This document shows, one piece after another, positions 736 to 17,224 of a stretch of DNA of 20,604 nt (its first letter is position 1; the number at the start of each line of letters is the position of its first letter). Source of the stretch: a virus; the IMG/VR virus record IMGVR_UViG_3300036864_000104, positions 1 to 20,604 of that record; one strand, 5' to 3'. The notes under the pieces are model-generated. The model saw only the letters and a program-made list of their open reading frames with translations. It was not told the origin of the DNA and did not search any database. Made by a program: the position numbers and the translations under genes.

Positions 736-3700
736 TTAGGCCGTCACCAGGACTCGGCGAAGCAAATCGGATAACGAGAAGACGGCAGACGAGGCCGTCA
801 CCTGATAGTGCGGCAACAGATCCGGCGCCGCGTCAAACGTGATCGTCACGTCCTGAATGAGGAAGTCCCCTTCGAGGCCCCAGGTCCCGACGACATTGAA
901 CATGTTACCGAACTCATCCGAATCGAAAATGCCGGTCGTCGTATTGATATGAACAGTCTTGCCCGCACGTGTCTTCGGATCGCGGGTGCAGTAGGTCACC
1001 GAGACGATCGGCCGGCTGAACCGTGCGAGGTCCGCATCGCACAGCGCGATCAGTGAGGCTTCGCCGCGTCGGTCGTCGGTGATCGTGAATTCACGGATGC
1101 CGTCGGTGGGATTTCCATTGGGTTCTTTTTCCAATTGGCCAAGTGCCGCTTGTGCCGCGAGATCATCGCGCTGCACCCAGAGATGAACGAGTGAGCCCTT
1201 AGCAATCGCACGTCGCAAGCCGTTACTATTATTGAGGCCAGTCAGTGCAGGTGATGGAAAGATCTGATTCCCGTACAGGACCGTCGTCGTGAGAGCACCA
1301 AATCCGTTGGGCGGAATCCCCGTGAGAGTATTGCCAGAGATCCCGGTATAGCGGACGGTCAGACTACTCAGCGATGCCCATCCACCATTGACTGAAAAAG
1401 GGCCGGCGCTGGCCAACAGGATCGATGTCGATCCAGCGAGGACTTGTCCCTGCGGCTGCGTCAACCCTGAGGTATCTGACACCGGAGCATTGGCACCCAA
1501 CGACGCATCGGCGTTCACGTCTAGATATGTCGTCGTCGTATTGTCGGCGAGCGTGGTCAAGAGTTTGAGTTGCGAAGCATTGACGGCAGTACGATAGACC
1601 TTGCGCTGCGTCGTCCCGCTCGCGCCGATCGCAATCCCGGTCAATGACACTTGATTCGCCGTGGCCGTGTTAGTCGTCGGCACATTCGCGCCAAGCGATG
1701 CATCAGTCACGGTATCATTAAATGTCGTTGTGGTGTTATCAGCGAGCGTGGTCAGTAATTTCAATTGCGCACCACCAGCCGTCGTGCGGTAGATCTTACG
1801 CTGGGTCACGCTCGCGGGACCAGTGGGAATCGCTGAGAGCGGAATCCGTTGGAGATAGGCCGTATTCGTCGATGGTGCTGCTGCGCCGAGGCTGGCGTTC
1901 GTCGTTGTATCTGTGTAGGTCGTGGCAGTATTGTTCGCGATCGTGGTGACTAGCTTGAACGTGCCGGTCCCATTGAAGCGGCGATAGAGCTTGCGTTGCG
2001 TGACATTCGACGCGCCAGTTGAGATCGTCGTCAGGCCGATCGTTTGATATTTGAACGTGCTAGATCCTGGTGGACTGACGTGGCCTGCGATGTCGGCGTC
2101 CGAAAACGTTTTGTCTCGATATTCTTGCGTAGTATTGCTGAGGACAACGAGCAGCTTGAACGCCCCTGTACCTGCCTGTCGGTAGATGCCGATGTTTGTG
2201 ACTGCCGCATCACCAGAGGCCGTCACAGTAAAAATGAATTCATTAGTCGATGGGTCACTAGTACTATGCAGGAGAGACGTCGGACCCTGAAGAGTTTCGT
2301 GTGAACTGCCTGGGGTACCACCATCGAGATAGGTAGCGACATAATGATAGTCGGTATTGGCAGTCACGTTACTCGGCCCAGGCCCAGTCGTTGCCTCAAA
2401 GGTGAAGGCCGGAGGTGCGCTGACCTCGCGGGCCGTGACCGATCCGCTCGTCGGGCTCACCGTCGTCTCGCCGATCGCCGTGACGAAGGTCACCTGGTAA
2501 TCATGAGTACCGTTATCCACGCCAACATCACCAATAGTAGGCGTCCCGGCCGTCGGCGCTGAGCTTGGCGCTGTGGTCGTCGATGTCGCCTTCGTCACAG
2601 TTGGACCCGCCGTCGTCTCGCCAGAGGCCGTGACGAATGTCACCGCATAATCATGACTCCCAATGTCTGGGCCTGTCCCTTCCGTAGGCGTCCCGGCCGC
2701 CGGCGCACTTCCAGGCGCGGCCGTGTTGCCAGTCGTAATCGACGCCACTGGACTCGGCAATGATTCACCGCTGCCAGTCACATCGGTATAGGCATATTGA
2801 AAGAGGCCTGTGGCGAGACCAGCGCCAGCTGCGAGGGCCAGCGAGGGCGCCGTAGACGGCGATGCCCCAGGACCGACCAGTGAACCGCCGCTCCCGAACT
2901 GCACACCAGTGTACGAGTAGATATCCGTCTGGGCGCCGTCTGCCGTCGATCCGGCAATGATCTGTCCGCCGAGCGGATTGAACATTGAGACATCTGGAAT
3001 CGGCAGAATCGTTTCACGTTCAGCCACGTCGGTCGGAATCGTTTCACCATGGCCTTTGCCATATGCGCGTGAGCGGATCTGTGACAAATCCGTACTGAAC
3101 GTCAACGGCGGCGTGTTCATGGGCGGGTGAAACTCGTTAATCGGATCCGGCGCGTCTGTCGCCTCCGCAATGAACAAATGCACGTCACGGCTGTAATCAA
3201 CTTTGGTTCGGCCACCCACAGCGATCGCAAGTTGATTCATGCAGGACATGAAGTCGGACTCGCCGTCGAAGTTGATCGAGATCGCTGGCAGATCCAGCTG
3301 GACGTGTCTTGATGTAAATCCAGGCGCGAAGGTCGCGATGAGGTATTGAGCGATCATCGTCGCAGACTGATTCACAAATGTCCCAAGTGGTCGCCGTTTG
3401 TTGATCGCGAAGGTATGATCAATCAGGCTCGCCGGCCAGACGAGATTGTCTGGCTTCACTTCGTAGCTCCGATCCACGGACTGAATCTCGCCACCGAACA
3501 ACAAGTTCGCTGAGTCGAGTAGTCCGAGGCCGATCGTGATCGACTGGCCCGCAGTCGGCGCCACCGTATCGAACAAGGCGGATGCCGTATTCGGTGCCGC
3601 CCCGAGCACATCATGAATTGAAAGGCCTGACGGGAAACGTACCCGCGAGGTCATCAGGACGCCGTCGAGCAGAAACAGCACTTTCGAGGCGGCCAGTGTC

Positions 3701-4032
3701 GTGAAGGACCACACCGGGCCTGTCGCCGTGCCGCCATCGTTGATCGCCACGATCTTCCAGTAGTACGTGGTGAACGGTGCGAGCGTAGGAATGTAGGTCG
3801 TGCCGACATAACTCGGAATGAGAAACGACGGGGACGGGTTCGTCCCGAAGTAGATATCGAACTTCGTCGCGCCAGCCGACACCCAGGAGAGCCGACTGTA
3901 GAGCGCAGTTGCGGTATCGGCAGGATACGGCATGTTCGGTGTCGCTGGTGCCGCTGGAATCGGCAGCACCGTCGAGCCCGCACGCGGATGGCGCCGATAC
4001 GGCGCGAAACGCAAGACCGAAGATGGAGGCAT
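736..4032 (-). CDS. Tail hub / tip protein with FN3 domain and tandem repeats (1098 aa)
   Basis: Large virion protein, probably the tail-tip hub. Residues about 32-112 look like a fibronectin type III domain (LSWVSAGATKFDIYFGT, then FTTYYWKIVAINDGG and WSFTTL). Residues about 115-345 form a non-repetitive block that I take as the first half of a hub domain. Residues about 410-540 hold two or three short repeats around HDYxVTFVTAxGETT, and about 612-862 hold four ~65-aa repeats (TQRKxYRT...LKLLTTLADNTTTT...DASLGA). From about 865 to 1098 non-repetitive sequence returns (SLTVRYTGISGNTLTGIP, then RDDLAAQAALGQLE and VTYCTRD), resembling the C-terminal half of phage hub proteins. The start ATG 4032-4030 is directly preceded by a G-rich ribosome site and lies 3 nt from the preceding stop. 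The exact hub family is uncertain; host binding by the repeats is inference. Confidence 0.78.
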   Translation of the reverse strand: MPPSSVLRFAPYRRHPRAGSTVLPIPAAPATPNMPYPADTATALYSRLSWVSAGATKFDIYFGTNPSPSFLIPSYVGTTYIPTLAPFTTYYWKIVAINDGGTATGPVWSFTTLAASKVLFLLDGVLMTSRVRFPSGLSIHDVLGAAPNTASALFDTVAPTAGQSITIGLGLLDSANLLFGGEIQSVDRSYEVKPDNLVWPASLIDHTFAINKRRPLGTFVNQSATMIAQYLIATFAPGFTSRHVQLDLPAISINFDGESDFMSCMNQLAIAVGGRTKVDYSRDVHLFIAEATDAPDPINEFHPPMNTPPLTFSTDLSQIRSRAYGKGHGETIPTDVAERETILPIPDVSMFNPLGGQIIAGSTADGAQTDIYSYTGVQFGSGGSLVGPGASPSTAPSLALAAGAGLATGLFQYAYTDVTGSGESLPSPVASITTGNTAAPGSAPAAGTPTEGTGPDIGSHDYAVTFVTASGETTAGPTVTKATSTTTAPSSAPTAGTPTIGDVGVDNGTHDYQVTFVTAIGETTVSPTSGSVTAREVSAPPAFTFEATTGPGPSNVTANTDYHYVATYLDGGTPGSSHETLQGPTSLLHSTSDPSTNEFIFTVTASGDAAVTNIGIYRQAGTGAFKLLVVLSNTTQEYRDKTFSDADIAGHVSPPGSSTFKYQTIGLTTISTGASNVTQRKLYRRFNGTGTFKLVTTIANNTATTYTDTTTNASLGAAAPSTNTAYLQRIPLSAIPTGPASVTQRKIYRTTAGGAQLKLLTTLADNTTTTFNDTVTDASLGANVPTTNTATANQVSLTGIAIGASGTTQRKVYRTAVNASQLKLLTTLADNTTTTYLDVNADASLGANAPVSDTSGLTQPQGQVLAGSTSILLASAGPFSVNGGWASLSSLTVRYTGISGNTLTGIPPNGFGALTTTVLYGNQIFPSPALTGLNNSNGLRRAIAKGSLVHLWVQRDDLAAQAALGQLEKEPNGNPTDGIREFTITDDRRGEASLIALCDADLARFSRPIVSVTYCTRDPKTRAGKTVHINTTTGIFDSDEFGNMFNVVGTWGLEGDFLIQDVTITFDAAPDLLPHYQVTASSAVFSLSDLLRRVLVTA
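1447..2199 (-). repeat. Four ~65-aa tandem protein repeats inside the hub gene
   Basis: Residues about 612-862 contain four consecutive copies: 612-677 (divergent), 678-742, 743-807 and 808-862 (shorter). Conserved positions are TQRKxYR, LKLLTTLADNTTTT, DASLGA and a TNTA-type tail. The last two copies are closest to each other, also at DNA level. The pattern suggests a beta-rich Ig/FN3-like stalk or carbohydrate-contact array. Unit boundaries are approximate because they were set by eye. Confidence 0.85.
2419..2694 (-). repeat. Two ~46-aa tandem protein repeats inside the hub gene
   Basis: Residues about 447-538 hold two copies of a unit with a GTPT start, a GxHDYxVTFVTAxGETT core and a Ser/Thr-rich tail. 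A related YAYTDVTGSGESLPSP segment just upstream (about 413-428) may be a third, diverged copy. They precede the ~65-aa repeat set and are distinct from it. Likely a small Ig-like fold; no function can be read from the sequence. Confidence 0.75.
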
Positions 4033-7737: not shown

Positions 7738-8136
7738 TCAGAACGTATTTGCCCATGCCCCATTCGCGGCGAATGACCCTGAAATCGTGACCGCGCCGCT
7801 GACCGATTCGTCCATCGAGATGTCCAGCCACGCAGGGCCCGACCAGAACTTGGTCACGATGTCGGCCGACGGATAGAGATACAGCTTGCATCCGTCCGCC
7901 GATGCCGCCGCCGTGAAAGGCTTGCTTTCGGTATCGTCCCACGATCCGCCGAATGATCCTTGGACATCCGGCAACCCTTGGACATACGTTTTGTTGGCAT
8001 CGCCAAAGGCCGTCACCTCGATCTTGTCGGTCGACCGATTGATCGTCCACTTGTTCAACTTGATGACGTTCGTCGCGGCGCCGGCTCCCGTCGTCGAAAG
8101 GTAGATAACCCCTTTGCGTCCTGCATAGACAGCCAT
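7738..8136 (-). CDS. Major tail tube protein
   Basis: A 132-aa protein that fits the small tail tube subunit of siphoviruses. It begins MAVYAGRKGVIYLS, has a NKWTINRSTDKIEVTAFGD segment (about 28-46) followed by VQGLPDVQGSFGGSWDD (about 52-68), and ends in paired beta-strand segments (AWLDISMDESVSGAVTISG). The 'W-x-I/x-K-I-E-V-T-x-F-G-D' pattern followed by 'G-S-F-x-G-x-W-D' is typical of phage tail tube families, whose subunits stack as hexameric beta-barrel rings. A GGAGAGGG ribosome site lies about 7 nt before ATG 8136-8134, strong as expected for an abundant product. It is the first tail gene after the cargo genes. The short length and beta pattern support tube rather than sheath. Confidence 0.85.
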   Translation of the reverse strand: MAVYAGRKGVIYLSTTGAGAATNVIKLNKWTINRSTDKIEVTAFGDANKTYVQGLPDVQGSFGGSWDDTESKPFTAAASADGCKLYLYPSADIVTKFWSGPAWLDISMDESVSGAVTISGSFAANGAWANTF

Positions 8137-8155: not shown

Positions 8156-9247
8156 CTAGGCGGCCTGTTCCTGAATCAATCGTGAGAGATCCCCCAGGAC
8201 CGTCTTAGCCCTAGTCGTCCACGATGACTCGGCCACACAGGCCGGTAACTGCTGTGCCATCCGCTGTCGTCCGTCCGGATCATGTAACCAGAGACGAATC
8301 AACGCGGCGGCCTCGGTCGGAGATGAGAAGGTCGGCACGAGATCGCCGAATACTTCCTTGACTTCCGCCCGGTCATCTGAGAGATGAAACGCACCACACG
8401 CGGCCAGTTCATAGGCACGCGGACTGAGCGATTCAGCATGAGCAAGATATGGCGCACCTTTTCCCCAGCCACGCGATTTCCGATAGAGATTCAGCCCGAT
8501 CTTCGCGCGCCGGTAGAGCGCCGCAGTCATTTCGTTGGTGATCTGCGCGCCTCTGATACAGGCCACCACCTGATCGTTCAGGCCCAAGTCTTTCCACGTG
8601 CCATAGAGGCCTAGATCAATCCCTGTCCAGTCAATACTGTTGAACCACGTCACACGCTCAGAGAAGCCGGATCCCACAAATACGACATCATGGCTGGGCA
8701 AATCGCCGAGTGACCGCGTCGCGACATAATGCTTGTCGGGATGCCACGCATGTGGGAGATAGCCCGCACGCGGATTCACGGTCAGAAAGTCCGCGACACA
8801 GGTCCGTTCATTTGTCCAGCATCCATCCACGAGCCCGGCAATCCGTAATTCCTGCTCATGATCGTAGGGTGATTCAGTGAAGAGGACGGTCACGAGCAGA
8901 CCGGCACGTTTCATCATGACGATCACGTCCGGGTGCATCAACATCGCACTGACGATGAGGACGACGTCCACCTGTTGCCGCAATGCCATTTCGAGTGCAC
9001 CGACGCCAGCGTGGTACATCACATCTGCGACATTGGGTTTCGCGAGATCCGGATTCGTTTTCTTTTTGGTGCGCCAGAGCCAGTGCAGTGCTTTGTGCGA
9101 GGCTTCGATCCGCGTATCGAGTCGATACGGTTCGACGTAGACGCCATGCTGTTGCAGACCGTAAGAAAGGCCGTCGAACACATCCGCAGTGGACCACGAA
9201 GCCCCAGGATGCGCCAGCAACACGCGCAGCGACCGAGTCCCGCTCAT
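8156..9247 (-). CDS. CgeB-like glycosyltransferase (GT-B fold)
   Basis: A 363-aa protein likely transferring a sugar from a nucleotide donor. The N-terminal half has an opening beta strand and loop (LRVLLAHPGASWSTADVF, about 7-24) and a second nucleotide-fold block (VDVVLIVSAMLMHPDVIV, then LLVTVLFTESPYDHEQE, about 93-133). The C-terminal half carries FVGSGFSERVTWF (about 190-202), LYRRAKIGLNLYR (about 244-256) and SLSPRAYELAACGAFHLSDD (about 273-292). The last matches the R-x-x-E-x-x-A-C-G-A-F donor-site signature of CgeB / glycosyl transferase group 1-2 proteins. The ATG overlaps the stop of the radical SAM gene (ATGA) and has a GAGG site about 8 nt upstream, showing coupling. Acceptor and donor are unknown; modification of a virion protein or surface glycan is inference. 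Its length is normal for the family. Confidence 0.87.
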   Translation of the reverse strand: MSGTRSLRVLLAHPGASWSTADVFDGLSYGLQQHGVYVEPYRLDTRIEASHKALHWLWRTKKKTNPDLAKPNVADVMYHAGVGALEMALRQQVDVVLIVSAMLMHPDVIVMMKRAGLLVTVLFTESPYDHEQELRIAGLVDGCWTNERTCVADFLTVNPRAGYLPHAWHPDKHYVATRSLGDLPSHDVVFVGSGFSERVTWFNSIDWTGIDLGLYGTWKDLGLNDQVVACIRGAQITNEMTAALYRRAKIGLNLYRKSRGWGKGAPYLAHAESLSPRAYELAACGAFHLSDDRAEVKEVFGDLVPTFSSPTEAAALIRLWLHDPDGRQRMAQQLPACVAESSWTTRAKTVLGDLSRLIQEQAA

Positions 9248-10308
9248 ATAAACGCCTCATGCGCTCGCGATGTGGCGATCGCATCAAGCTGCTGATTCAC
9301 TGGATGCAGCCGGCACATCACCCGACAGCCCTCGTCGACCGCATAGTGGCCTGGATGCCCTGCCCAAATGTCCGCGAACGAGTCGATACGAAGATCACCG
9401 AGCGCCGTCACTCCGCGCCGTTGTGGGCAGATCCAGACGCGGCCGTCTGGCGTGATCGTCGTATTTAATCGGATCCCCGTGCAGGACGTGTAGCCATGGC
9501 CAGCCCATGCGGCATAGGCGCGGAACCGCTCCGGCTCGATCTCGACATCAGATTCACGCGCAAGCTGTTCGAACAGAAGTGGCGCCGCCGCGATCCAGCG
9601 GCGATCGTCGGTGCATTGGCTTGGCGTGTCAGGCGACGTCCGGATCGCCGGCCTGAAGGTCGCATAGGTCGCGCCGAGCGAGCGAGCGAGCGCGAGCATG
9701 TCCCACGCGCGCGTGTAGTTCTGGGCATGCAGCAGAAACGACACGCCCACGACCACGCCATATGGAGTCAGCCACCGGATGCCATGACAGGCCGCCTCGA
9801 AGCGCTCAGTCGATACGCCCTTCTCGGCAGCGTAGGTCGCTGCATCAGCACAGTCCAGCGACACGACCACCCATGACGCGGTGTGCGCAAGAAAGTCCGC
9901 AGACTCTCGTGTCAGCAGCCCGCCAAGCGTATACATCCCTTGCTGCAGCCCTTGACTCTGTGCGTGCGCCAGTATCTCCATCCATGCGGGATGTGTCGTG
10001 GGTTCCCCGCCGCCGCTCCAGACGATGCCCTGCACGTCTAGCGCAGCCAGTTCGCTGACGATGCGCGTGACAAGTCCGACGTCAGCGAGATCGCCTGTGT
10101 CCTCATACGCCATCGGCAACATGCGCGACCTGGACACCCACGGTCCCTTGCTATGCGTGTGCGCAAAATGGCAGTCCTGACACCCCAAGACGCAACGGTT
10201 CGAGAGATCCCATTCCACCGTCACAGGTGCTGGCTTCTGGCCGTGGCTCCAACCGACCACCCGATCGAGATGGGCAAAGACTTTGTGCCGTGGGTCGATG
10301 TAGGTCAC
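9244..10308 (-). CDS. Radical SAM protein with C-terminal Cys cluster (twitch/SPASM-like)
   Basis: A 354-aa enzyme predicted to cleave S-adenosylmethionine at a [4Fe-4S] cluster. The cluster motif is Cys39-x3-Cys43-x2-Cys46 in VTVEWDLSNRCVLGCQDCHF. The SAM-contact GGGEPT motif is at about 99-104 (VWSGGGEPTTHP). A C-terminal set Cys276, Cys294 (in TPDGRVWICP), Cys328 and Cys332 resembles the auxiliary cluster of twitch or short SPASM domains, including the G-x4-C pattern. The start is GTG 10308-10306, overlapping the glycosyltransferase stop (GTGA), with an AGAGGT site 7 nt upstream. Relatives of this architecture act on peptides, sugars or small molecules, so substrate cannot be assigned. Flanking glycosyltransferases suggest a role in a sugar or modified-residue pathway. 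The motifs are clear; the function is not. Confidence 0.88.
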   Translation of the reverse strand: MTYIDPRHKVFAHLDRVVGWSHGQKPAPVTVEWDLSNRCVLGCQDCHFAHTHSKGPWVSRSRMLPMAYEDTGDLADVGLVTRIVSELAALDVQGIVWSGGGEPTTHPAWMEILAHAQSQGLQQGMYTLGGLLTRESADFLAHTASWVVVSLDCADAATYAAEKGVSTERFEAACHGIRWLTPYGVVVGVSFLLHAQNYTRAWDMLALARSLGATYATFRPAIRTSPDTPSQCTDDRRWIAAAPLLFEQLARESDVEIEPERFRAYAAWAGHGYTSCTGIRLNTTITPDGRVWICPQRRGVTALGDLRIDSFADIWAGHPGHYAVDEGCRVMCRLHPVNQQLDAIATSRAHEAFI

Positions 10309-10850
10309 GCGACTACCTCTGGATGCCCATGACGCACATCCCCACGAAGAAACAGCATCGACAACCGAGCGACGCGATGGCCAGCCATACAGAGCGCCTG
10401 TGCGAAATCGGCGTCACCCTCATAGCGTTTCCCGTAGTCGCCGCAGTGTTGCGTCCACACATCCCGGCGCACGATCAGATTCCCGAGATCGATTTCACCG
10501 AGGACCGGTGGCCACACGCCGGAGATCTGCCCCAGACCGTGCTTGATGACCGAGACCAGGATGATCGGCGGATAATCCTCGGCGATGGCGAAGTCGCGCA
10601 GCTGTGTCACGACGGACGAATTCGCGAGCTCGTCATCGTCGGCCAGGAAATGCACGTACTGGCCATGTATCGCGTTGGCGTACTCAGGCACCCGCGCAAA
10701 CACGCCCGCGATCCCGACGCCCACGTAATCGGCGACGATGACATGTTCGATCCACTTGATGTCGGTTTGCTTTCCCACGCTGGCCATGCATGCGGCCAAG
10801 GCCTGTGGCCGTCGAAAGGTTGGTGTATAGAACGTGATGAATGGCGTCAC
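10305..10850 (-). CDS. Family 2-like glycosyltransferase, compact GT-A
   Basis: A 181-aa protein with a GT-A N-terminal fold. It opens with the family-2 strand and loop (ITFYTPTFRRPQALAACMAS, about 5-24). A metal/nucleotide-binding acidic motif DDDE (71-74) follows in YVHFLADDDEL. Then come a GNLIVRRDVW strand (about 123-132) and an acidic EGDADFAQAL helix (about 144-153), where family 2 enzymes often have their catalytic acid region. At 181 aa it is shorter than usual (commonly 230-300), so it keeps only the core and may need a partner. The start is GTG 10850-10848, overlapping the gp10-like stop (GTGA) with a GAGGTGA site about 4-5 nt upstream. It is the first of three coupled cargo genes. 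Donor and acceptor are unknown. Confidence 0.85.
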   Translation of the reverse strand: MTPFITFYTPTFRRPQALAACMASVGKQTDIKWIEHVIVADYVGVGIAGVFARVPEYANAIHGQYVHFLADDDELANSSVVTQLRDFAIAEDYPPIILVSVIKHGLGQISGVWPPVLGEIDLGNLIVRRDVWTQHCGDYGKRYEGDADFAQALCMAGHRVARLSMLFLRGDVRHGHPEVVA

Positions 10851-11269
10851 ACATTCACCTCGAAGCCAGCCCGCCGCACGACTTCAATCAACGCGTCAAC
10901 CATTTTCCGGCGGATCCGGATCACCTTCGGGATCATGCGCTGCGCTTCCGGTGCTTCCGGCATCCGGCCACGATTCCAGCCGCGATCGGTTCGACGATTG
11001 CCCGTGCCGCGCTCAAAGAAATGCGCATGTGGGGCGCGACTTCTCACGGTGGCCATTGTCGTAACCGTCGATCGATGCTGTTCAATCGTGACGCGGCGTT
11101 TGAGGTTGCCGGTCGGGCCAGTCGGGTAGTTCTGGACAATCTCGCGCTGCGCTGCTTCAGCATGAGCCGACACAATGTCGCCTGCTTCGGCCGCTAAGTC
11201 TTCCGGCAAGTTACGCAGCACCATGCGTAGCTCATCGAGACCACTCAACACAAGACGGTTGTGACTCAT
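10847..11269 (-). CDS. HK97 gp10-like neck / tail completion protein
   Basis: A 140-aa protein of the HK97-gp10-like type, found at the head-tail junction. The pattern is an N-terminal helix (LSGLDELRMVLRNLPEDLAA) leading into AHAEAAQREIVQNYPTGPTG, then NLKRRVTIEQ and VRSRAPHAHFFERGT, the last being the hallmark 'A-P-H-A-x-x-x-E-x-G-T' segment. A basic C-terminal helix follows. I chose ATG 11269-11267 rather than the upstream in-frame GTG at 11287 because it has a GAGGAA site about 8 nt upstream and forms an ATGA overlap with the head-closure stop. It is the last recognisable neck gene before the cargo cluster. In relatives it helps attach or complete the tail. Confidence 0.85.
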   Translation of the reverse strand: MSHNRLVLSGLDELRMVLRNLPEDLAAEAGDIVSAHAEAAQREIVQNYPTGPTGNLKRRVTIEQHRSTVTTMATVRSRAPHAHFFERGTGNRRTDRGWNRGRMPEAPEAQRMIPKVIRIRRKMVDALIEVVRRAGFEVNV

Positions 11270-11568
11270 GGAATGATTTCCTCGCACAGCAACCGCAACT
11301 CCGCGTCGTCTTCGTTGATGTTCTGAAATCCCTTGACAAACAATTCGCGCGTGTCGAACACGATCCGCGTGTCCATGTTGACTTGCGGATGAAACCGCAT
11401 CCCGACTTCATGCTGAATCGTACGACCGTCTAACGACGGCGGCAGCGGCCGAATCGCCGCCCACGCCCCAGCGGGTGACAATGGCTCGAAGAATCCATCG
11501 GTATCATTGGTATGTTGCGGACACCGCGAGAGCGTCACCCATTTATTGAACCGACCCACGCGCGGCAT
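11266..11568 (-). CDS. Head closure / head-tail adaptor protein
   Basis: A 100-aa protein of the phage head-closure family (SPP1 gp16 / HK97 head-tail adaptor type). It begins MPRVGRFNKWVTLSRCPQ, reads through an AWAAIRPLPPSLDGRTIQHE segment (about 35-54), RFHPQVNMDTRIVFDTREL (about 58-76) and ends FQNINEDDAELRLLCEEI. The A-x-I-x-P-L...G-R/E...H...R-Y/F...I...M-R-I-x-F pattern is characteristic. It forms the stopper ring beneath the connector. It starts 1 nt after the connector gene stop, with no strong ribosome site nearby, so translation is probably coupled. Order connector, closure, gp10 is the standard one. Confidence 0.87.
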   Translation of the reverse strand: MPRVGRFNKWVTLSRCPQHTNDTDGFFEPLSPAGAWAAIRPLPPSLDGRTIQHEVGMRFHPQVNMDTRIVFDTRELFVKGFQNINEDDAELRLLCEEIIP

Positions 11569-12492: not shown

Positions 12493-13881
12493 TTACGCCT
12501 GGGTGCCGTACTTGACCGGGTTCGTGCCCGCGTCGAGTAAGTCACCGTCATGTCGTGAGAAGGCAAGGAATGCGACCTGTCCGAACTCGGCGAAGCGTTC
12601 CTCGAGTCGGAGCAACGTCACATCACGCACATCGCGGATCTGGTACTTCGAGAAGTCGCCAAAGAGGATCGATTTCACCGCTGTCGCCGGCGTCGTCATC
12701 GATTGGTTGACGGTGTATTCGTAGCCAAGAATCCGATCGGGTTGGCCGGTGGTCAAGCCGGGTATCCAGAGCGGCGCGCCGACGGTGTCGCCGGAGTACT
12801 GCAGGATCTTGACCTTTTTGATCATCTTCAGTCCGCCATCATGAAACATCCAGCGCCCGTTGTTGCGATAGGCGGGGTCGACGGAATGGATCACATCCGT
12901 CAGGTTGTCCGCCGTCACGGTCGCTGTTCCTGAAAACGTGATCCCGGAGCTTGTCGCCGCCGTCACGATCCCGTTTGGCTGCGATGAACCGGTCCCAGTC
13001 GTGAAATGATCATTCGTGATCCGCGCGATCCGGACCCCAAGCGCATTCCCGATGAACTCGGCTGGATTGATCGACGTGTCCTGCAAGAACTCGACGCTCG
13101 CCTTGATGTACTTGCTCGTGTACTTCCAGGCGTCAATCACGAGCTGACCGAAGGTCATTTCCAGCTCGTTGAACGTCGTGTTTTCCGCGATGATCTCGCC
13201 CTTGTTTGCCGTGTCGTTCGTGGTCGGAAACGGCAATGGCCCACCGGTATCCGTCCTGAAGACCGTCGAGACCAAGCGCATCCCACCATAGGCCAAGAGG
13301 GCCATTTCGAGCGCGCGCATCGTGGCATCCGCCGTCGTGAACCCTCCGGTCGTCGTCGAGCTCTGGAGGCCCGTCAAGGCTGCGCGCTTTTCGTCCACCT
13401 GGACCTGCCACGCGCGCAGATCCTCTGGCGTGTTCCCCTTGAGCAGCGGTCCCATCTGGAGCTTGAGCCGTTTCGAGTCGACGTTGATACCGCACCGGCG
13501 CGCCGTCTCGCGCTGTTCATCCGTCACCGCATTATCTGGCACGCCGCCAAGTGCCCAGGCGCGAAACGCTTCGACCCGATCGTGCTCGGTGATCTTGCCG
13601 GCTGAGCCGCGATAGGACGGACGGGTGTCGATCGGATTCGGGTCAGTACGCCGGCCTTTGGATTCCTCGAGACTGGCCCGTGTCGCTTGCTGCTTCTCCA
13701 TCCGAGTGATCAGGGCCGTGATTTTTTCGATGTCCGCATCGATCGCATCCCACTTGTCCTGTTCTTCCTTGCGAAGATCCATGCGGCCTTCGTCGGCCGC
13801 TTTCTTCAGGACTTCGTCGGCCTGATCGCAGAACTCGCCCTTTTTCTGGCGTAACTCTGTAAGGTTTTGTGAAAAGTCCAT
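12493..13881 (-). CDS. Major capsid protein, HK97 fold
   Basis: A 462-aa shell subunit. Residues about 1-75 form a charged helical/coiled-coil segment (LTELRQKKGEFCDQADEVLK and on to ITALITRMEKQQATRASLEE), the expected scaffolding delta-domain removed by the prohead protease. The capsid core begins around residue 170. It contains GGFTTADATMRALEMALLAY (about 179-198) and segments typical of the P- and A-domains (ELEMTFGQLVIDAWKYTSKY; NDHFTTGTGSSQPNGIV; WMFHDGGLKMIKKVK). It ends SILFGDFSKYQIRDVRDVTL, LRLEERFAEFGQVAFLAFSR and DGDLLDAGTNPVKYG. The ATG at 13881-13879 has an AGAGGAA site 7 nt upstream; an in-frame TTG at 13956 was rejected. It follows a 204-nt non-coding leader and precedes a strong hairpin. 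The cleavage site cannot be placed by eye. Confidence 0.94.
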   Translation of the reverse strand: MDFSQNLTELRQKKGEFCDQADEVLKKAADEGRMDLRKEEQDKWDAIDADIEKITALITRMEKQQATRASLEESKGRRTDPNPIDTRPSYRGSAGKITEHDRVEAFRAWALGGVPDNAVTDEQRETARRCGINVDSKRLKLQMGPLLKGNTPEDLRAWQVQVDEKRAALTGLQSSTTTGGFTTADATMRALEMALLAYGGMRLVSTVFRTDTGGPLPFPTTNDTANKGEIIAENTTFNELEMTFGQLVIDAWKYTSKYIKASVEFLQDTSINPAEFIGNALGVRIARITNDHFTTGTGSSQPNGIVTAATSSGITFSGTATVTADNLTDVIHSVDPAYRNNGRWMFHDGGLKMIKKVKILQYSGDTVGAPLWIPGLTTGQPDRILGYEYTVNQSMTTPATAVKSILFGDFSKYQIRDVRDVTLLRLEERFAEFGQVAFLAFSRHDGDLLDAGTNPVKYGTQA

Positions 13882-14295: not shown

Positions 14296-14834
14296 TCAAG
14301 CCTCGATCCTGCCTGGGTTTTCTGAAAGGCGTCGAGCGATCGCTTCGCGACCGAGACATCAGTCTGCATATAGGCCGGGAACGCCACCACGCTGACTTCG
14401 CTGATCGTCATGTCGTTGACTTCGCGGATCAACATCCCGTCCTCTTCGCGCCAATCGTCGCCGTTCGGCATCACCCGGAACGCGAACGACATACCGGAGA
14501 CATCACCGCGGCTGACGGACTCAAGAATGTCCCGGCCGGCCGTGGTATTCGCGGGATCAATTTCGACTTTCAGCCCCTTCTGGTCCTTTCGAAGCGCCAG
14601 CGTCCCCGACCGCGTGCGACCGATGACCTTTCCGGAGTCATGATCCACGAGCGCACGCACGTCCAAGGCTTCCGAGAGTGTCCGATCCACGGCTTCGGGC
14701 CGGATGATCTCGCGGAACCCGCCGAGGTTCTGGGACAGGGCGTTGAACACGATGGCGTAGCCCTTGATCTTGCGGAGGGCATCAAGTTCAACGCGGACTT
14801 CTCCGGTAAAACGCCGTTCCAGTTCTTCCATCAT
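14256..14834 (-). CDS. HK97-family prohead protease
   Basis: A 192-aa maturation serine protease that cleaves the capsid scaffolding domain and itself. The catalytic His is expected at His65 (ALVDHDSGKVIGRT) and the Ser at Ser116 (DVSGMSFAFRV). An acidic partner region lies around Glu146 (MTISEVSVVAFPAY). The N-terminal KIKGYAIVFN segment (about 22-31) and the GFREIIRPEAVDRTL segment (about 39-53) are also family hallmarks. The ATG 14834-14832 overlaps the portal stop (ATGA) with an AGAGG site about 5 nt upstream; a second ATG follows at once. Length fits the family. The C-terminal basic stretch may bind the capsid scaffolding region. Portal, protease, capsid is the canonical order, here with one extra gene between protease and capsid. 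Confidence 0.93.
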   Translation of the reverse strand: MMEELERRFTGEVRVELDALRKIKGYAIVFNALSQNLGGFREIIRPEAVDRTLSEALDVRALVDHDSGKVIGRTRSGTLALRKDQKGLKVEIDPANTTAGRDILESVSRGDVSGMSFAFRVMPNGDDWREEDGMLIREVNDMTISEVSVVAFPAYMQTDVSVAKRSLDAFQKTQAGSRLEWLRKVLRIRRAR

Positions 14835-17224
14835 GCGACCTCTTTCAGCACCCGCGCTGCGATCGTCTCCGCGCGTTCTGCTTCCCAGCGCCGGAGCACT
14901 TGCTCCAGTGCTGGCGCCATCGTGTCGGCGTCGTGCTCATCCGCGACAGTGCCGAGCTGCCGACGTGATTGATTGATGTACTCAGCAACGAACAGATCGA
15001 GCAGATATTCGACGGGTTCCGTATGGCCCATACAGACCACCCACGCACGTACGGACGGCCTCAGCACCTTCCGACAGCGATCCTCATGGCCCGGATAGAA
15101 CTGTGTCAGCCATGTCCGGAGCTTGTCTGGTGATCCTTGCACGCGACGCGCACGATCGGACTCGTGCTCGATCAGCCAGCGAAGATCATCGACCAGTGCC
15201 GCTCGAATGGCGACACCTGATTCGTTCAGGCGGCGTTCGGCCTGCGCAAGAGCGGCCGTCCGAACCGTGAGCGTCTCGTCGAGCGCCAGCCGGGCCGCTT
15301 CTGTCTGAACCTGCGCCGTTTCCGCCAGTACTCGGGCCTCACGCATCTGACCGTATATAAGGCGTTCATCATCCCGTTCGCCAGTCAATGTGATAATCTG
15401 CGCTCGTAGTTCGACGTTCACGGCTTCAACCGTTTGGCACTTGCCGCTGAGCCCATCACGCTCAGTGATCATCGCCGACAGATCTGCCACGGCCCGCCCG
15501 AGATCTTGCCCAAGCCGCATCGCCTCAGCCGTCAACCGTGCCTGTTCAGTCGCGTGCTGATCGCGCGCGGTGTCACGCTCCCGCGTCATCGCCTGCAACT
15601 CACCACCGACACGCTGGACATCAGCCTCAAGCCCCGCCCTGCGCAATTCCAGTGTCGTCACAGCGGCCCGTATGGATACGAGTTCGATGTTCAATCCATC
15701 AGCACGAGTCGTCTCACCGCGGAGTGCAGTTTCCAGCCCACCGACTTTCTGGACGGCATCGTCACGCTGCGTCGTCATCATCTTGACGTCGCCAAGCGAG
15801 ATATCGAGGAGATCTTCGAACTCTTGGGCCTTCTTACGGGCCGCGTCGCGTTCCTCGATCGCACGACTCAAGTCTTCCTGAGTCGGCCCAGGCGGCCGTG
15901 GAGGTGGCTCCTTCAGCTTCTCAATATTGGCGAGTTTCTCGTCGATCGATGCCTGCCACCAGTCTTTCGACAGGCTCAGCGGGATCATCGCCGTATTGAC
16001 AAAGGCCTCATCACCACCATCAACCGGGTTCCGGTTCTCAATTTCCCGGATCTCATTCGGAATGATGGACGCCGTATTGAACTGCTCGCGATAGAACACA
16101 CCGCGACCCGCCGAGTCGCCGCGCAATAATCCAGCCGCGACAAATTCGATCTCCTGCTGATTCCGCTCGAGCGGCGAGACGAGTTTCTCGTTCAGTTCCT
16201 GATCCCAGCGTTCCAGCCATGGACTCAGACAGTCAATGTAGTACTCAAGATTCTGATGTTCAATATTGTTGTTCGTCGAACGCGCAAGTTCTTTGAGTTT
16301 GTGCGGCGGCAGATTGAACCAGCGCGCGACTTCATCAATTTGAAACGTTCTGCTTTCTAGGAATTGCGCATCGTTCGGCGGGATGCCCATCCGTGTATAC
16401 GTCGCATCGTTATAGAGCGCGAGCAACTTGTGTGCGCGATCGACGCCTTGATGTTTCGCGTTGAGCGACTCTGTATAATTCTTGTCGGACAGTTCCGTCG
16501 GCCGCGGCCCCTTATAGGAGATCACGCCGCCGAAAGTGGCCCCGTTACCGAAAAATGATCCGCCGAAGCGCTCCGTCGCGAGGCCCAATCCGATGGATTC
16601 GCGCGCCTTCTGGATGACCGAATAGCCGCTGACCCCATCGAAGCCGAGGCCCGGGATGTGCAGCATATCGGCCGAAGCCATAAAGACCTCGCCGCCGTTT
16701 GGTTGCTGCACGCGGTATTGCAACGGACTATCGGCCGATCGCCTGAACGGCATGACCCGATCCGGTGTAATCGGCCAGAGTGCGGCCACCCGATCGGCAC
16801 CGTTTCGTTCGATTTCGGCATAGGCATTCCCCCACGTCAGCACATGCGCCTGCAGCGTTTCGCGAAACGTGAACGCTGACATCTCAGGGTTCGGCCGATC
16901 GTGAACGATCCGATAGAGTGGGTGCGACGTGTACCGTTCCTTGCCGCCCCCGGGCAATTTCCGCCACAACGGGCATGGCAGATTCCCGACCTGCGAGGAG
17001 ATGAGGCCGACCGCGGCCCAGACCGCGGAATAGTTCAGCGCGGTCGTTTCGTTGACCGCCACGCCTGATGACACCGGCGTGGCATTGAACAGACGCGCGA
17101 TCTCCGGCGAACTCGCACTCAGCGGCCCAGACCAATGCGAACGGAACGCATCCAGCGCTTGCTTGAAGCGCTGGATGCGTGACGGCCGATCCTCGACGAG
17201 CTGGTACCGCTGGAGCTTACCCAC
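14831..17224 (-). CDS. Portal protein (HK97 family) with long coiled-coil C-terminal extension
   Basis: The portal is the dodecameric DNA gate of the head. Residues about 55-420 match HK97-family portals: NYSAVWAAVGLISSQVGNLP (64-83), HPLYRIVHDRPNPEMSAFTF (101-120), WGNAYAEIERNG (131-142), MLHIPGLGFDGVSGYSVI (187-204), ARWFNLPPHKL (300-310) and NIEHQNLEYYIDCLSPWLER (320-339). The usual portal ends near 420-450, but here a Pro-rich linker (PPPRPPGP, 440-447) leads to a heptad-rich, charged coiled coil of about 215 residues (450-665). A helical C-terminal domain (about 670-797, with LRTWLTQFYPGHEDRCRKVL) follows. The start is GTG 17224-17222 with GAGGAAA about 6 nt upstream, overlapping the preceding stop. 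I infer one continuous polypeptide; the extension's function is unknown. Confidence 0.93.
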   Translation of the reverse strand: MGKLQRYQLVEDRPSRIQRFKQALDAFRSHWSGPLSASSPEIARLFNATPVSSGVAVNETTALNYSAVWAAVGLISSQVGNLPCPLWRKLPGGGKERYTSHPLYRIVHDRPNPEMSAFTFRETLQAHVLTWGNAYAEIERNGADRVAALWPITPDRVMPFRRSADSPLQYRVQQPNGGEVFMASADMLHIPGLGFDGVSGYSVIQKARESIGLGLATERFGGSFFGNGATFGGVISYKGPRPTELSDKNYTESLNAKHQGVDRAHKLLALYNDATYTRMGIPPNDAQFLESRTFQIDEVARWFNLPPHKLKELARSTNNNIEHQNLEYYIDCLSPWLERWDQELNEKLVSPLERNQQEIEFVAAGLLRGDSAGRGVFYREQFNTASIIPNEIREIENRNPVDGGDEAFVNTAMIPLSLSKDWWQASIDEKLANIEKLKEPPPRPPGPTQEDLSRAIEERDAARKKAQEFEDLLDISLGDVKMMTTQRDDAVQKVGGLETALRGETTRADGLNIELVSIRAAVTTLELRRAGLEADVQRVGGELQAMTRERDTARDQHATEQARLTAEAMRLGQDLGRAVADLSAMITERDGLSGKCQTVEAVNVELRAQIITLTGERDDERLIYGQMREARVLAETAQVQTEAARLALDETLTVRTAALAQAERRLNESGVAIRAALVDDLRWLIEHESDRARRVQGSPDKLRTWLTQFYPGHEDRCRKVLRPSVRAWVVCMGHTEPVEYLLDLFVAEYINQSRRQLGTVADEHDADTMAPALEQVLRRWEAERAETIAARVLKEVA

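Follow-up and report, generated by a model that had tools for sequence, protein, structure and literature searches.

A modular cassette of two glycosyltransferases and a radical SAM enzyme beside the tail tube gene of uncultivated phages, a candidate for virion glycosylation

Three overlapping genes in the neck and tail region of a virus record encode 2 glycosyltransferases, called GT-A and GT-B here, and between them a radical SAM enzyme, called rSAM. They belong to a sugar-modifying cassette that is widespread among uncultivated phages and is put together in a mix-and-match manner: GT-B is the fixed member, and rSAM is one tailoring enzyme among several that can replace each other. Assembly of a glycan is very probably what the cassette does, and rSAM probably edits a sugar. 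To the full proposal, that the trio is the tailoring module of a virion-glycosylation cassette in which GT-B and GT-A glycosylate the tail tube and rSAM edits the sugar, we give an even chance.

Locus and reading frames

The window, by which we mean the whole stretch of DNA analyzed (20,604 nucleotides), is a 20.6-kb virus record with terminase, portal, protease, capsid, adaptor, neck, tail tube, and tape measure genes on the minus strand. The trio lies at 10850-8156 on that strand, flanked by a gp10-like neck gene and the tail tube gene, with these features:

10847..11287, minus strand: gp10-like neck or tail-completion gene, directly upstream of GT-A (PF04883, 1.6e-5; phrog_5 "tail completion or Neck1", 6.7e-14)
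10856..10861, minus strand: GT-A ribosome site GAGGTG, read from the sequence
10305..10850, minus strand: GT-A, minimal family-2-like glycosyltransferase, 181 aa, GTG start, ADDDE motif (D71/D72 invariant in 15 relatives)
10315..10320, minus strand: rSAM ribosome site AGAGGT, read from the sequence
9244..10308, minus strand: rSAM, radical SAM enzyme with a C-terminal 4-Cys twitch (short SPASM) domain, 354 aa, GTG start (Pfam, conserved Cys, AlphaFold model)
9255..9258, minus strand: GT-B ribosome site GAGG, read from the sequence
8156..9247, minus strand: GT-B, retaining GT4-like glycosyltransferase, PF13524, CgeB-like, 363 aa, ATG start (EX7E, Pfam, model)
7738..8136, minus strand: tail tube (major tail) protein, candidate acceptor (PHROG major tail protein, 1e-10)

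Four-nucleotide overlaps join gp10 to GT-A (GTGA), GT-A to rSAM (GTGA), and rSAM to GT-B (ATGA), and the distance from ribosome site to start is 5 to 10 nt for all 3 genes, so that the trio consists of intact frames co-translated within the late operon. This agrees with the preliminary description of the locus, which had placed the genes between neck and tail tube with these overlaps and ribosome sites. No convincing membrane segment is found in any of the 3 proteins, and judging by their sequences they are apparently soluble. Elsewhere in the window, the portal ORF at 14831-17224 has an unusual length of 797 aa and ends in a charged C-terminal extension that looks like a coiled coil; in a 1098-aa tail protein at 736-4032, the middle region is long, repetitive, and rich in Thr.

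The two transferases

GT-B matches PF13524 at 2e-19, above the Pfam cut-off. Its EX7E motif is E272-x7-E280, with E280 invariant and E272 nearly so across relatives. The model, with a pLDDT of 91, has the retaining GT-B fold with BshA, GlgM, MshA, and PimA as nearest structures, and the protein transferase SdgB is matched as well. By fold, EX7E, and Pfam, GT-B is thus a GT4-like retaining GT-B enzyme. A second GT-B paralog is seen elsewhere in the head-tail operon of some relatives, where it precedes adaptor, capsid, or neck genes (L006:1-816, L142:2802-3911, L145:1355-2449, and L121:3357-4403).

GT-A has no Pfam match. Its profile matches GT2 structures (PglI, 1.4e-5), and the DDD motif is conserved, with D71 and D72 invariant among the 15 relatives. 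A single-protein search of viral contigs with GT-A gave 0 matches by a pattern method of limited reach, GT-A relatives being found later beside rSAM. Profile comparison of other small upstream genes with GT-A found no similarity. The motifs first noticed, ADDDE in GT-A, CxxxCxxC with GGGEPT and a four-Cys C-terminal cluster in rSAM, and a CgeB-like GT-B (PF13524), have all held up, the four-Cys cluster now being refined to a twitch domain.

Distribution and modularity

When viral contigs were scanned, 16 relatives of rSAM with 60-70% identity came up first, alignment raised this to at least 150, and for GT-B at least 277 relatives were found. Merging near-identical loci among the matches listed left 116 non-redundant virus loci, in which gene calls were made by script, so that the counts are approximate. 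The complete trio is found in 16 of the 116, and every locus with both GT-B and rSAM (16/16) also has GT-A, frequently with the 4-nt overlaps retained. Among 50,697 phage-isolate records, there was no match to GT-A or GT-B, and the best rSAM matches were below 30%.

The preliminary description had suggested looking for the trio as a conserved neighborhood, and had named independent occurrence of the 3 genes in related phages as a refutation. The trio does recur, but not as an obligate unit, an idea that we reject: GT-B is usually found without rSAM, and many rSAM loci lack a GT-B of the window type. Of the 57 GT-B loci without rSAM, 32 have a GT-A domain upstream, and 5 of these 32 have the GT-A and GT-B domains in a single open frame; one GT-B locus has a methyltransferase-like region fused to GT-B. 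The slot upstream of GT-B is filled in relatives by GT2 enzymes, methyltransferases, TylF-type O-methyltransferases, and one DegT sugar aminotransferase. Several loci show only the tail-completion gene and GT-B, so GT-B may work by itself, perhaps as the priming enzyme. In 2 of the 16 loci with the complete trio (L048 and L056), terminase and portal are the flanking genes, and the tail tube gene is elsewhere, strongly diverged, and has no GT-B adjoining, so that the trio can be present as a block at another site. Some relatives have the cassette beside capsid or terminase, away from the tail tube. A joint glycan pathway, which had been proposed as plausible, is now well supported by the recurrent neighborhood, the single GT-A/GT-B frame in 5 relatives, and the sugar-nucleotide, aminotransferase, and methyltransferase genes in the slot.

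The radical SAM enzyme

Pfam matches rSAM to Radical_SAM at 2e-10 (PF04055, above cut-off) and to SPASM at 1e-5. The SAM-cluster motif is C39xxxC43xxC46 with GGGEPT, and C39, C43, and C46 are invariant in all aligned relatives, placing the enzyme in the radical SAM superfamily. The C-terminal motif, also invariant, is C276-x12-G289-x4-C294 followed by C328xxxC332. The published start pattern of SPASM/twitch domains is CX9-15GX4C plus a later Cys pair (PMC6231123). Since only 4 conserved Cys follow the SAM motif and the C-x12-G-x4-C start fits that pattern, we assign the C-terminal domain as a twitch and not as a full SPASM domain, which has a seven-cysteine motif and 2 auxiliary clusters. In relatives as distant as about 39% identity, none of the 7 cluster cysteines varies. 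With active sites conserved in this way and gene order recurrent in many contigs, we reject chance or decayed genes, an outcome that had also been named as counting against a system.

The AlphaFold model has a pLDDT of 83, with the barrel starting at about residue 30. BlsE, SkfB, and DesII are among its top structural matches and score alike (Z of about 24), with BtrN at 17.8, and identity in the structural alignments is only about 15-19%. The modeled structure alone does not decide between a sugar-modifying and a peptide-modifying function, and the SkfB paper cautions that sequence networks are a poor guide to function within the SPASM/twitch subfamily. A viperin-like defense enzyme (Viperin or pVip) was rejected, as the viperin model NF038283 reaches 30 bits where its curated cut-off is 180, and PADLOC pVip covers residues 30-159 only.

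Peptide enzymes (SkfB, SuiB, and anSME) are among the top structural matches, the first NCBIfam matches include peptide maturases such as those of mycofactocin and PqqE, and a PDB profile search with rSAM returns PQQ, SkfB, and anSME. These matches would suit an enzyme that modifies a side chain of a virion protein, by anSME-like oxidation or by a crosslink, and so creates the acceptor for both transferases. We regard this as unlikely. The N-terminal peptide-binding (RRE) domain of RiPP maturases is not found in rSAM, whose barrel begins some 30 residues in and which has no extra Pfam domain; GT-B usually occurs without rSAM, so rSAM is not required to make the GT-B acceptor; and the nucleotide-sugar neighborhoods of remote bacterial relatives argue against a peptide substrate.

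It is mainly the transferase and nucleotide-sugar company of the rSAM relatives that makes a sugar the probable site of the reaction. Among relatives of at least 35% identity, a transferase is found within 4 genes in 45 of 46 loci, where 3 of the 45 are counted only by a family with weak GT34 similarity and 6 only by weak-to-moderate GT2 similarity; the exception, L051, ends at rSAM. Neighbors of rSAM relatives include NDP-sugar dehydratase/epimerase, GT-D, GT4, and GT17 genes, methyltransferases, and a second radical SAM protein that is sometimes B12-binding. In the remote bacterial relatives, NDP-sugar SDRs make up 13 of 65 neighbors, accompanied by GT2, DegT, and carbamoyltransferase genes. 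There is no conserved Cys in rSAM outside the clusters, which makes a cysteine-donor epimerase less likely than an oxidation or other sugar-radical reaction.

Two arrangements are recorded as side observations. The second radical SAM protein measures about 420-460 aa and adjoins the twitch rSAM in L060, L061, L064, L067, L086, and L250, with a B12-binding domain in L061. In the podovirus MW202801.1 (L026, 12004-16667), an rSAM of 27-29% identity is followed by GT2, a PhyH-type dioxygenase, a methyltransferase, a NodB-like deacetylase, and GT genes, all behind the capsid gene.

A first scan of bacterial genomes found no close rSAM relative. In a second, one relative (42%) was present on a Chloroflexi MAG contig of 3.9 kb, where a GT-A gene and another rSAM gene adjoin it, and all others were remote. 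On these 2 scans we reject a close bacterial origin of rSAM.

The acceptor

GT-B is encoded directly upstream of the tail tube in the nearest 80 tail tube relatives, the one exception being a truncated contig. The remaining misses of the automatic count reflect gene-call artifacts or a gene that lies a few hundred bases off. Phage DSL-LC06, with a 31% tail tube relative, has no transferase at that place. Because GT-B accompanies essentially every close tail tube relative, the earlier statement that none of the 3 enzymes is needed for morphogenesis is an assumption. GT-B and tail tube co-diverge with rho of 0.49-0.61, no greater than tail tube against other head-tail genes, so this is no proof, and the fixed neighborhood may be only vertical descent. 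We rejected a comparison of tail tubes with and without GT-B as a guide to the acceptor residue: the two sets differ at N48, K49, S79, Y86, and W128, but clade is a confounder, and no more than 73 of 97 have the N48-x-S/T sequon. The GT-B-paired tail tubes, including the one at 7738-8136 of the window, share a DxNK[TV]YVQG loop and W128 that are absent without GT-B; these are candidate acceptor positions, again confounded with clade. Capsid and tail tube subunits of mycobacteriophages are reported to carry glycans (PMC12619734, PMC11256854), and for this reason the tail tube is our leading candidate. We take the tail tube or another virion protein to be the likeliest acceptor, with host envelope or DNA less so; of the acceptors offered in the preliminary description, a virion protein is thus favored over the host envelope.

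Serotype conversion of the host by gtr-type systems uses a membrane-bound bactoprenol transferase and a flippase. The trio has no convincing membrane segment, and there is no flippase-type or bactoprenol-transferase family among the neighbor families listed. Together with expression of the trio alongside late virion genes and the linkage of the GT-B gene to one tail tube family, this argues against a role in infection where the cassette would alter glycans of the host envelope to exclude superinfecting phages or to aid release. That role is quite improbable in our estimate, although glycosyltransferases of temperate and marine phages have been proposed to alter host O-antigen (PMC7029224) and distant bacterial rSAM relatives are found in surface-polysaccharide-type clusters.

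Hypermodification of phage DNA bases has precedent in the known DNA-glycan transferases of phages (Pyle 2024, cited in PMC12619734). A TAGT gene at record 13083-13727 of gut phage MT835491.1 (L027) is directly upstream of a 23%-identical rSAM, and 2 TAGT genes are in the genome of L038 (G009, 66.5-71.1 kb), far from its rSAM. Against this, no TAGT was found in the other close-relative records tested, nor beside the window-type cassettes tested, and the trio sits in the neck/tail module. PF00303, the thymidylate-synthase/hydroxymethylase family, has 0 matches in 29 records including the window, with the controls giving matches, the window record being a fragment; PF12851 (Tet_JBP) has 0 in 28 records, where the controls were silent and several records are fragments. 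DNA as the target seems very improbable.

Discussion

In the pathway that we favor, glycosylation of the virion, GT-B would transfer the first sugar, most likely onto the tail tube protein encoded beside it, and GT-A would then attach a further sugar. The rSAM enzyme would cleave SAM at the C39/C43/C46 cluster and abstract a hydrogen from a sugar carbon of a nucleotide sugar or of the attached glycan. By analogy with known twitch enzymes, the Cys-ligated twitch cluster could take up the electron to leave an oxidized sugar, as in BtrN, or the step could be another sugar-radical reaction like those of BlsE or DesII. The product would be an unusual virion glycan, its composition varying among related phages.

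Virion glycosylation by phage enzymes is already known; the novelty lies in its pairing with a radical SAM enzyme and in the modular slot. Mycobacteriophages such as Che8 likewise encode their own glycosyltransferases (Freeman et al. 2023, via PMC11256854 and PMC12619734), whereas here the transferases are within the neck/tail operon, are joined by rSAM, and are known from genes alone, and the cassette varies gene by gene. The rSAM enzyme has the fold and cluster motifs of the sugar-acting twitch/SPASM enzymes BtrN, BlsE, and DesII, and its 4-Cys twitch resembles the fully ligated BtrN type, but it belongs to a phage family whose only close bacterial relative found is on a short MAG contig. 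GT-B has the fold, EX7E, and Pfam match of CgeB-like/GT4 retaining transferases (PF13524), and differs in being tied to a phage tail tube gene. Phage transferases, sometimes with a radical SAM gene (one remote case, MT835491), are found also in the TET/JBP and TAGT loci that hypermodify phage DNA, but the searches here found no hydroxymethylase in the 29 records and no TAGT beside the window-type cassettes tested. A search of full-text literature, with subscription papers mostly outside its coverage, found no description of such a trio.

A broader proposal, which we hold tentatively and at somewhat less than even confidence, is that phages of this group glycosylate the tail tube by the tail-tube-linked GT-B, and diversify the sugar by swapping enzymes, rSAM among them, into the slot flanked by neck and tail tube genes. 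If true, a large group of uncultivated siphophages would join the mycobacteriophages in glycosylating their virions, with radical chemistry added, and the slot would be a natural series of glycan variants upon one tail tube scaffold. The phage radical SAM family, with at least 150 viral relatives, would also gain a narrow, testable substrate hypothesis.
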